64,000 nucleotides of DNA, taken from the NCBI GenBank assembly GCA_946811185.2, contig OX328099.1:39667299-39731298 (forward strand). The letters are read 5' to 3'. The notes under the pieces are model-generated. The model saw only the letters and a program-made list of their open reading frames with translations. It was not told the DNA's origin and did no database searches. Position 1 is the first letter of the stretch, and every line of letters starts with the position of its first letter. This stretch comes from Hippopus hippopus. Its lineage: Eukaryota > Mollusca > Bivalvia > Cardiida > Cardiidae. Both the position numbers and the translations under genes were made by a program. Below are positions 9,156 through 19,700 of this stretch, piece by piece.

Positions 9156-10721
9156 TACTGACACGCAAAAGAAAGTGTGCACTTGGTTAATTGGGAAATT
9201 TTGCATACTTAACTAAGCAAATATTGGCATATTTGGTATCAAAATTTGCAAAAATGTACTGACTACACAACATTTTGATTTTGATTGAAATTTAGTTATA
9301 AGCAGATTTTTGTTTTACGTGTAAATCACGGAGGGGTGAAAAATAAAAGTTGCAGACTTACGATTTTTTGGTAAATGCTCTTTGGCCTTCGGATACTTGT
9401 GTAGTTACGTAACATTTAATCAGTATTTGTTGTGCCCACCTCGTCTAAGGATGAACGCCAGTATTCTAGACCGCATGGACCTGACGTAACGTCTAATGAA
9501 GTCGGCGGAAATGGCGTTCCATTCATGTGCTAAGGCTGCAGCCAAGTCATTGATATTGTTGATGACATGGTTTTTCCCTTGCTCTCCTACCAAGCAAATC
9601 CCATAGATGTTCGATGGGATTCATATCCGGAGAGCAAGACGGCCAAGGTAAGACATTAACGTTATGTCTAGCGAGATAGGCCTAATTCCTGGTTAATACA
9701 GCACTATGTGGCCTTTCATTATCATGCATTAGACAACCAGGATTCTGTTGTAGGAAAGGAACAATAACTGGGCGTAAAACTTGGTCAATATAACCTTTGG
9801 CATTTAAATTACCACGAATAAAAACAAGGTCTGTATTCATATCACCCATGATACCTCCCCAGACCATTACACTACCCCCTCCAAAACGACCCCGCTCTAG
9901 TAGACAGTTTTGGTCAAAACGTTCCCCTCTACGTCTAAATACCCGAACTCTACCGTCTGCAGTGCTAAGTTTAAATCGCAACTCATAACTAAAAAGCACC
10001 CTAGACCACATGGCGCGGTTCCAACGTAAGTGACGGCGAGCCCAGACCAGTCTGAGAGCGCGATTTCTGTTATTAAGAACCTGACCTACGCAAAGTCTCC
10101 TAGCCTTTATCGGGTAAGGATTGGCCCTTAGGCGTCTCAGAATGGTATCCCTAGATACGCCAAGCTCCTTCGCAGTGCTTGTAGCCGTTTTGAATCGATG
10201 ACGCAAGTGCATCAAAGTCAAAAATCTATCCTGACGTGCCGTTGTCACATTCGGCCTACCGGATCGTGGGCGATCTCTAATGTTTCCATTCTGGTTGAAA
10301 CGTTGTCGGAGTTTGCTTATTGTGTTTCTATGGCAGTTAAACTGCCTAGCGACGTCAGCAACGCCAACACCGGCAGCGAGCTGCACAAGCGCTTGAAATC
10401 GCTCGTTTTCTTGAAGCTTTGGCATCGTGTTTGCGAGTGAAATTAAAAAATGAACTGTGATTTATTATTGCACTATCGATAAAGATATCGGCCAGGGCCA
10501 ACCCGTTGCTGTACACACTTTGCACGGGTAGCACGAGCGAAAGTTACAAAATAGCCCGCCGTCAATGTGAAGGTCGTCTATGCCCTGAAATATGGGTTAA
10601 ACTGGGGCAGTTTGTGGAGGATTATTTTCTTCTCTCATGTTAAAAAATCCGTTGTTCTAAACTTTGTTATAAAAAAGTTACGCCCAATATAAAAGTGCAC
10701 ACTTTCTTTTGAGTGTCAGTA
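9156..10721 (-). mobile_element. Tc1-like DNA transposon (inactive)
   Basis: Terminal inverted repeats of about 25 bp (TACTGACAC with AAAGAAAGTGTGCAC at the left, the complement at the right) are flanked by the TA target duplication at 9154-9155 and 10722-10723. The interior holds one broken transposase reading leftwards. Length of about 1.57 kb is normal for Tc1 elements. Confidence 0.9.
9420..10425 (-). pseudogene. Tc1-family transposase pseudogene
   Basis: The first 247 codons are open. They carry an N-terminal paired-like helix-turn-helix (VADVARQFNCHRNTISKLRQ), a second HTH with RPRSGRPNVTT, and part of the DDE domain. Three defects are visible. The position normally held by the first catalytic Asp in the FSDE motif is Tyr (FSYEL). 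An in-frame TAG stands at 9682-9684, just after the second catalytic Asp block (HDNERPH). A frameshift near 9563-9580 follows the still recognisable SPDMNPIEHLWD block, which includes the third catalytic residue. After the shift the C-terminal part (EWNAISADFIRR) continues in another frame to about 9420. The enzyme cannot be active. Confidence 0.9.
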
Positions 10722-16742: not shown

Positions 16743-19700
16743 CTGCAATAAAATTATGCAACAACTCTGTCTGTTCAGAAGTATTTTCATATCCATCCAT
16801 CCATCCGTCCATCCATCCATCCATCCATCTGTAATGCAGTCATTCAAGCATCTATCCATCCATCACACTTTCATCCAGCATTCCATCATACTTTCTTCCA
16901 TCCATCTACAAAATAGTGAACTTGTAATACTAGTTAAATCATTTTTCAATTTGTTTTTAAATCTGACAAATAGGTCCCTAGGGTAGGGTGCCATTATTTT
17001 TTCTGTCTTGTATTGTCAGTATAATTTGTTGTCTATGCCATTTTCACTCAATGATAAAATTTTCACATACTTTACATACTTTCACTAAAGAATAATCATG
17101 GGGAGTATATACATGTATGCTTATTTTTAAATTGGGAAATACCAATTATCATATGCAGATTAAGTTCCTCATATTGAAATGAGGAACAACATGCAAGATG
17201 CAATTTCTCATTCTGCCACATTGTTTTCACATGTAATTACATGCATATAATTAACCTTAATGCATACTGACTTTTATCATTTTGCAAATATGAAATCAAA
17301 TTTCAACGAACTCACTTTTATTGACGGGTATTGCCAGTTTACCACTTTTAGTTGGGTACTTTCCCCCTGTAACCAAAGGCACTATGGGCTGTTTCAGTAA
17401 CATTTCTAATTCTGTTTTTAAAAATTTCATGGAGCGTTTGTGTTCTGCTTGCTTTCTATCATCACCAATATCTGCTAAACTAGTACAAGTCAAGGTCTGA
17501 ACATCAATACTTTTGTTATAAACATGTCCCTATAAAGTTTCTAGCTCAATTACATGCATCACATGCAAATAAAATCAGACATGACAGAAAAAAATCTGTA
17601 TCTAGACAGTGTGTAATATGGTTCTGAACATGCACACAGAATAAAATTCAGATTGGTTTGCAATTTGAGCATCAAAATGATACGCAACAATATCTATCTG
17701 CCATTTATTCCAAAAATTTATTACTCACTTAACTAGTACTTTTTTAAAAATTTCTTAATGTTTTCAAATAAAATCATCAATAGTTGCAAAATTCTTTTAA
17801 AATCTGTAGGTACACAATAACATGGATATCATGTTGTAGTACCTTTCCTGGTGCTTGTATCTGGGTCTCCTTATGTAGAAAAATTTTGATATTTTGATAT
17901 ATCTTGGTCTTGCAAGATATAAAAGTTCCCCAAGCAGCTCAAGCAAATACAAGCACCAGGACTATTACTACACTATATTTTGTATGTATACACAGACAAT
18001 ACCAAAATTTGCTAGAACCAATCACCACACATCATGGAGATAACAACAGCATTCCATGCTGTATTGCAGGTATTTGGAGAAAAGGTAAATGAGTAAAACC
18101 TGCCATCCTTCATTAGCTTCCTGCCATAGATTCTATGCATCCTTGATCATTGCTCCAAACTTCTCATAGCATATTCAGTGTGATGATTAACAGTATCTAC
18201 AATCATGTACAGATTATGAAGAAAGCTCAAATCTTCTGATTCACAAGTATTGAAACAGTGTAACAGTTTTATTATACTTGCATCCAATAGTAGTACCGGT
18301 AAGTTTCATATTTCCTATACTTCCTCCTCAGAACTTTACCACACACACCCAAATTTTTACCAACCTTAAGGAAAAGTGCTTTTGAAAATACTGTGTGAAA
18401 AGCAAAGAATGCTAGTAAACAGCATTTTTTTTCCTTTCCTCCTCATATTTTCTTCCCCTTTAAAGACAATTTCCATCGTTTAAACCACCTTCTTATGAAC
18501 AAAGTCCGTAACAAAGAAACAAATGAATAAATGCATGGCAGTACAAACCGCATCTGGCGGGATTCGAACCCATGGCGGACAAGATCCTCGTTTTTCGAGG
18601 TTTAAAAGACCAATACCTTAACCACTGAGCCAAAGAGATATCTCTCTAATGCAGTTGTTAGGTATTGTATTTAAATCGGGACGAAGCCATGCATGAAGGA
18701 ATGGTCTCCCGTAACACATCCCCTCTTAAAGTCATCATTTATTGATGACTCAAAGCCTTATTAGGCAGTAAGTCTATTATTTAGACAATAAATGTCCGTT
18801 TTTGGACAACAAATGGGATTAATGGCTCAATGGCCAATCCCGGACGAGCCCCCATCTTACGAACAAAGTCCGTTACAAAGAAACAAATGAACAAATGCAT
18901 GGCAGTACAAACTGCATCTGGCGGGATTCGAACCCATGGCGGACAAGATCCTCATTTTTCGAGGTTTAAAAGACCAATACCTTAACCACTGAGCCAAAGA
19001 GATATCTCTCTAACACAGTTGTTAGGTATTGTATTTAAATCGGGACGAAGCCATGCATGAAGAAGTGGTCTCCCGTAACAACCTTTACTTTGTTGCCTGC
19101 AAATGATTTTGATTTGGACAAGCCCAAAACCCATTTTGTTTGGTAATGAGTTAACTCTTTACTAGAAAATAAAATCATAGACTTGTCCATATTGAAAACA
19201 TTTACAGACAACAAATCAAATGTGGCTGTTACGGTTGAATTTGTCTTTCAAAGCAAGGAAAACTGTTGAAAATAGAAAAATGCTTGTTACTAGCCTTTTC
19301 CCTTCTCCCACCATGTTTTCAAAAGCCATTTTCCTCTGTGTTTTTAAAACAGGAGATCGTTTGGTAAAGGGCTACTCTCCAACATTTACAATCACTCTAA
19401 AAATATTTGAAGTTAAGAATGGAATTAATCAGATGATCAAACGATATCAGAAAGGATACATTCCGTCGTCCTCAATATCTATGCCGGATTCATCTGCCAT
19501 TTTCTTGAACCAGTCATTCTGCCGCTTCCTTTTCTGAAATCTAAAACAACCAGAATATACTAGTTACAGTAGAACCTCAATTATTCAAATGCAAAGTGTG
19601 ATAAGAAATTTATTTAGAGCATCAAACAATCTCTGTATTTCAACTACAAAAAATAGATTACTTTTATTCATCCACTTAAAAGTCTCCATTCCATGCTGTA

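Follow-up and report, generated by a model that had tools for sequence, protein, structure and literature searches.

Introduction

TRIMs with tRNA-like LTRs have already been published under the name Helenus, given by Kojima (2024), who placed them in class TRIMp3 and found them in fungi, animals and a plant (PMC10886601). According to the accessible part of that account, Helenus occurs in bivalves, for which 51 families have been published, its reported molluscan range consists of Pteriomorphia only, and its insertions in animals are flanked by 4-bp target duplications (PMC10886601). Priming by tRNA-Pro is described there for some bivalve Helenus families and for the oyster element Gypsy-13_CGi, and experiments are said to be required before a pol III promoter of Helenus can be called functional (PMC10886601). 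Two further systems are related in organization. Cassandra of plants, a TRIM that forms tandem arrays, carries an internal pol III promoter within its LTRs, and the available portions of the literature on it trace that promoter to 5S rRNA (PMC7215508, PMC10853983). The bivalve family biv-TRIM occurs in solo and tandem copies and has an interior of 77–80 bp without a clear primer site, in which the segment TGATCCCAAAGGAC is found in all but one species (Satovic, 2019; PMC6934838). The available part of the same paper reports no tRNA-like promoter for biv-TRIM, and describes cockle elements whose left and right terminal repeats fall into different clusters (PMC6934838).

The element described here lies in the genome of Hippopus hippopus, in a stretch of 64 kb that was analysed whole and is referred to below as the window. 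The family to which it belongs is of a largely known kind. It consists of short elements with two LTRs, a primer site and a purine tract, with A and B boxes in the LTRs (without a full tRNA) and the 4-bp duplication typical of animals, and so resembles Helenus as far as that group is set out in the accessible text, including the bivalve hosts and the tRNA-Pro site of some bivalve families; the tandem arrays seen here are likewise noted for the zebrafish element LTR-11_DR (PMC10886601). From Cassandra it differs in having a tRNA-like rather than a 5S rRNA-derived promoter sequence, and Rfam scans gave no match in the LTR to 5S rRNA, by which Cassandra would be recognized, or to the hammerhead ribozyme expected of a retrozyme. 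In contrast to biv-TRIM the interior measures 138 bp and, by inspection, lacks the TGATCCCAAAGGAC segment, whereas insertions with two different LTRs, described below, recall the cockle elements.

An earlier note on this DNA had identified a TRIM with tRNA-like boxes and a tRNA-Pro primer site, an identification borne out by the anatomy of the element and by about 100 genomic copies. Its suggestion that such an element would be a new, tRNA-like counterpart of Cassandra was anticipated by Helenus/TRIMp3 (Kojima, 2024; PMC10886601). Nor is the primer site unexpected in an invertebrate, as the note had held, because tRNA-Pro is reported for some bivalve Helenus and for Gypsy-13_CGi (PMC10886601).

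Structure of the element

The minus strand of the window contains a complete 590-bp LTR element at 18491–19080 (Table 1). The repeats, flush primer site, purine tract and target duplication on which the earlier note had based this reading are all confirmed. The same note had placed the A and B boxes and the hairpin in the orientation of the element without giving a strand; every one of these features lies on the minus strand. The direct repeats extend over 18485–18716 and 18849–19080 with 95% identity over 232 nt, and the LTRs proper, 226 nt each, are 96.0% identical. The duplicated target ACCT of the forward strand reads AGGT on the strand of the element. The primer site, which we take to pair with the 3′ end of tRNA-Pro, occurs once in the 64 kb when up to three mismatches are allowed, with 0 occurrences expected from 100 shuffles.

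Table 1. Features of the LTR element and their positions in the window.
Feature	Position	Strand	Source
5′ LTR, 226 bp, TGTTACGG...CGTAAGA	18855..19080	-	repeat comparison
3′ LTR, 226 bp	18491..18716	-	repeat comparison
Interior, 138 bp	18717..18854	-	sequence
Primer-binding site TGGGGGCTCGTCCGGGAT (tRNA-Pro), flush with 5′ LTR	18837..18854	-	pattern scan
Purine tract TTAAGAGGGGATG, abutting 3′ LTR	18717..18729	-	sequence
A box TGGCTCAGTGG, 5′ LTR, LTR position 85	18986..18996	-	sequence
Variable-arm-like hairpin CCTCG-AAAAA-TGAGG, 5′ LTR	18950..18964	-	sequence
B box GGTTCGAATCC, 5′ LTR, LTR position 147	18924..18934	-	sequence
A box, 3′ LTR	18622..18632	-	sequence
Hairpin CCTCG-AAAAA-CGAGG, 3′ LTR	18586..18600	-	sequence
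B box, 3′ LTR	18560..18570	-	sequence
Target-site duplication ACCT, left	18487..18490	.	sequence
Target-site duplication ACCT, right	19081..19084	.	sequence

The start of the B box follows that of the A box by 62 nt in each LTR, with the short hairpin in between. When one LTR was put through 20000 single-base shuffles and one strand was scanned, an A box followed by a B box at the stringency used turned up once. No tRNA was detected by ARAGORN in the window or in 21 loci with copies, and an Rfam scan gave no tRNA match to the element. The sole Rfam match near it was a 13-nt tmRNA fragment lying over the B box (9.7 bits). Likeness to a tRNA is therefore limited to the boxes with their spacing and a CTTTTAA that resembles an anticodon loop.

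Copies in the host genome

The host assembly (1.07 Gb, 34 contigs) was searched with the whole 590-bp unit, giving at least 46 matches with the best 40 of 3561 candidates scored, and with the interior (best 40 of 1448 candidates) and a single LTR (best 40 of 3406). Further queries with a short-form 5′ LTR and a short-form 3′ LTR (see below) took the best 40 of 2765 and of 2781 candidates; all of these match numbers are lower bounds, and the candidate counts give a first look rather than a true copy number. Once 13 duplicate chains and one short chain had been dropped, the 134 loci yielded 125 non-redundant chains. Duplications were counted on the 106 chains with both ends, the 19 lacking an end being excluded.

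A target duplication flanks 91 of these 106 chains, measuring 4 bp in 88 and 5 bp in three; 15 have none. The duplications comprise 60 different sequences, and no pair among the 106 chains has a common flank. One hundred chains start with TG, and 100 end with AAGA. Eleven solo LTRs with both ends were found, all with TGTTA...AAGA ends, of which nine have a 4-bp duplication, one has a 5-bp duplication and one has none. Of 84 near-complete interiors, 57 carry the primer site TGGGGGCTCGTCCGGGAT without mismatch. In a set of the retrieved loci 133 primer-like sites were seen, and all but one lead in register into the expected interior, the exception being a TRIM interior shifted by one base. Among 60 single elements with LTRs of matched type from the first 76 loci the median LTR–LTR identity is 95.7%, with the lowest value near 88%, which indicates that most of these 60 copies are not fresh. 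Tandem arrays with shared LTRs also occur. The longest seen, L079 (6909–8591), has five LTRs and four interiors within an outer target duplication.

Varied duplications and solo LTRs would, according to the earlier note, support its reading, as would boxes in every LTR; they are present in most. The note had also named two findings that would speak against its reading. The first, copies without the tRNA-like part, is confined to exceptions, the part being generally retained: the B-box stretch is missing from one LTR each of L129 (the 5′ LTR) and L042 (the first), and neither LTR of L075 has a B-box match. The second, repeats occurring only as SINEs, does not describe the 11 single LTRs, which are solo LTRs by their ends and duplications.

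Forms of the LTR

The first 76 loci provide 149 near-complete LTRs, comprising 125 of a long form (mean length 226.6 bp), 22 of a short form (206.7 bp) and two of a third form, both from L075. The third form is about 206 bp long and has a deletion right after the B-box region. In the aligned rows that were compared, the long and short forms have a common left part that includes the A box and a common last ~45 bp, but carry different sequence between the anticodon-like loop and a point about 20 bp beyond the B box. The same 149 LTRs were used for counting boxes. The A box is present in 106 of 125 long-form and 20 of 22 short-form LTRs and the B box in 102 and 15, respectively; both boxes with spacing are found in 88 long-form and 13 short-form LTRs and are absent from the remainder (37 and nine) and from both third-form LTRs. 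Ordinary tRNA genes have an A-to-B spacing of about 44. Where both boxes are present the spacing is 62 in 66 of the 88 long-form LTRs and 44 in 11 of the 13 short-form LTRs.

In a larger set of 172 long-form and 43 short-form LTRs, all columns in which the two forms diverge in composition by more than 0.4 lie at positions 78, 99 or 108–176. The interiors of 64 long-form and 13 short-form elements have no column differing by more than 0.25, and flank identity is 0.930 and 0.933 in random long-short pairs versus 0.933 and 0.929 in random short-short pairs. Because the differing columns are confined in this way, and interiors and flanks are alike, we conclude that the 3′ half of the tRNA-like sequence was exchanged as a cassette on a common backbone.

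Within the long form, the mean major-allele frequency is 0.968 for the A box and 0.977 for the B box, compared with 0.941–0.977 for other LTR regions. As the boxes are conserved no better than the rest of the LTR, selection on them is unsupported at this depth.

Insertions with mixed LTRs

LTRs of both forms are combined in 11 single insertions whose duplications are intact, eight of them short-long and three long-short. One more short-long element lacks a duplication, and mixed arrays are also present. Queries neutral to order gave a first set (L013, L018, L059, L071, L094 and L110, of which L013 and L094 are incomplete) with the short form in the 5′ LTR by 6 to 0 (P 0.03). In mirror queries, the 40 loci found with a short-form 5′ LTR included a long-form 3′ LTR in six single insertions (L071, L116, L120, L123, L124 and L125), and the 40 found with a short-form 3′ LTR included a long-form 5′ LTR in three (L130, L131 and L132). 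A fixed order with the short form 5′ was thus rejected (Fisher P 0.48). In the mirror sets the loci with an unclear partner were fetched (12 and 7), the rest being judged from search matches or from loci already retrieved. The arrays L119, L121 and L103 were not counted as mixed, nor were loci with the partner LTR cut, deleted or absent (e.g. L015, L126, L129, L133 and L134). L011 was rejected as a mixed element, both of its LTRs being short-form.

In the standard LTR life cycle one template yields both LTRs, and the mixed insertions therefore point to strand transfer between molecules or to later gene conversion. The same observation makes LTR divergence an unreliable clock here, since one insertion can bear two LTR types. 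Chromosomal gene conversion after insertion, rather than inter-molecule strand transfer during reverse transcription, has roughly an even chance of being the source of the mixed LTRs. Both LTR orders occur beside intact duplications, similar copies are plentiful as donors, and in L124, L071 and L059 the flanks are as alike as those of matched LTRs, all of which favour conversion. Over nine short-long pairs, however, the flanks average 0.937 (left) and 0.944 (right), closer to the values of random long-short pairs than to those of matched long-form pairs, which are higher (0.955 and 0.962). L018 is an outlier among the short-long pairs with a right-flank identity of 0.77, and the outcome of the flank comparison as a whole is intermediate.

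Tentatively, the family may be a single TRIM population with two pol III promoter halves (spacing 44 or 62) on a freely recombining backbone, the halves being swapped in replication and the mixed insertions arising where two RNAs are reverse-transcribed per particle; we regard this as possible but rather doubtful. Inter-element recombination was reportedly described in pear Cassandra by Yin in 2014.

The pol III question

The family is best read, with a probability of about 85%, as a Helenus-type TRIM, that is a non-autonomous LTR retroelement with a proposed pol III promoter and presumed mobilization by Gypsy elements. The LTR–interior–LTR arrangement, primer site, purine tract, 4-bp duplications, solo LTRs and A and B boxes are seen directly. 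Pol III would bind the A and B boxes of the 5′ LTR and start slightly upstream of the A box, and, since TTTT runs are few on the transcribed strand, its transcript could span the whole element. A terminator in the 3′ LTR would be unnecessary, because strand transfer needs only RNA reaching into this LTR. The RNA would be packaged by an autonomous Gypsy element, which would be expected to carry the same primer site (pattern TGGGGGCTCGTCCGGGATV). Reverse transcription would then be primed by tRNA-Pro, with strand transfer in the part common to both LTRs, and insertion would be carried out by the Gypsy integrase. Recombination between copies, whether by template switching or gene conversion, would account for the swap of 3′ halves in the tRNA-like promoter.

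The transcribed unit has on average 0.98 TTTT runs in the long form (57 elements), where 3.72 are expected when 15 of these elements are dinucleotide-shuffled. The short form has 0.58 (12 elements) versus 3.87 in dinucleotide shuffles. AAAA runs are near expectation (1.96 versus 1.80 in the long form and 1.17 versus 1.04 in the short form). Shuffles with at most one TTTT had a frequency of 0.05 for the long and 0.03 for the short form, and those with none of 0.007 and 0.004. Interiors have a mean of 0.05 TTTT per 138 bp (84 copies), whereas flanking DNA (46.8 kb) has 13 per kb. A TTTT-poor transcribed strand is what pol III transcription would favour; as the copies share ancestry, the deficit amounts to no more than one or two observations that are independent. 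A TTTT is retained in the anticodon-like loop of the long form, where it would be a possible early terminator.

An ordinary pol II TRIM, whose LTR merely holds a fossil SINE or tRNA fragment without promoter activity now, would fit with the lack of a recognized tRNA fold and with long-form boxes that are conserved no better than the adjoining LTR sequence. It is nevertheless an unlikely account of LTRs that have two distinct 3′ halves, a B box in most copies at a spacing of 62 or 44 and a common A box, and whose transcribed strand is so poor in TTTT; replacement by another tRNA-like half is not expected of a fossil. Finally, although the A and B boxes resemble a SINE head, it is highly improbable that the 226-bp repeats are SINEs flanking a short spacer by chance, given that SINEs have no LTR structure and have longer duplications of varying length, and that this family has LTRs, an exact primer site at the start of most near-complete interiors, 4-bp duplications in most chains with both ends and 11 single LTRs with constant ends, nine of them in 4-bp duplications.

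Surroundings of the element

A DDX24-like RNA helicase is encoded on the minus strand, its exons (as read by eye) occupying about 39562–19447 of the window. The TRIM lies ~367 bp downstream of the stop codon (also read by eye) on the same strand, and is possibly within the 3′ UTR of this gene. In a tree of 24 proteins the DDX24-like protein groups with that of the freshwater mussel Potamilus (support 91/86) inside bivalves and gastropods, with octopods outside; the fork with the ark clam Tegillarca, a member of Pteriomorphia, is without resolution, and candidates were limited by length so that longer bivalve proteins were left out. In the pieces aligned by BLASTP, identity is 64.0% of 314 residues to Tegillarca versus 61.7% of 402 to Potamilus.

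A Gypsy-type element extends on the minus strand from about 49969 to at least 59611, with 300-nt terminal repeat blocks that are 97% alike. Its gag-like ORF has zinc knuckles, an integrase domain is present among its pol-like ORFs, and a further ORF is weakly similar to a baculovirus F protein (27.1 bits). This element is the only Gypsy noticed in the window, and the stretch inside its 5′ LTR is TTGGTGCCGTGTTAACC rather than the tRNA-Pro site expected of an autonomous partner of the TRIM. At 9682–10461, also on the minus strand, a 259-aa ORF has helix–turn–helix matches that include a Tc3-type transposase domain, below the curated cut-off. Among the retrieved loci, L052 contains a long hairpin (1191–1316) with sub-threshold similarity to Rfam microRNA precursors (MIR2950, 29.9 bits, cut-off 76).

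Discussion

The alternative 3′ halves, the mixed-LTR insertions and the TTTT poverty are additions to the published picture of Helenus, and the exchange of promoter halves is the most interesting of them. The accessible part of the Helenus report holds no mention that we found of two alternative or exchangeable tRNA-like halves, of mixed-LTR insertions or of TTTT avoidance, the string TTTT having 0 occurrences in it (PMC10886601).

With a further genome and about 100 dissected copies, the family confirms that molluscs are a group in which TRIMs with tRNA-like LTRs thrive. Having two promoter halves on a common backbone amounts to a natural experiment on what portion of a tRNA-like promoter determines how successful such an element is. 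If the halves are indeed swapped in replication within one population, promoter modules would act like alleles within a population of retroelements.
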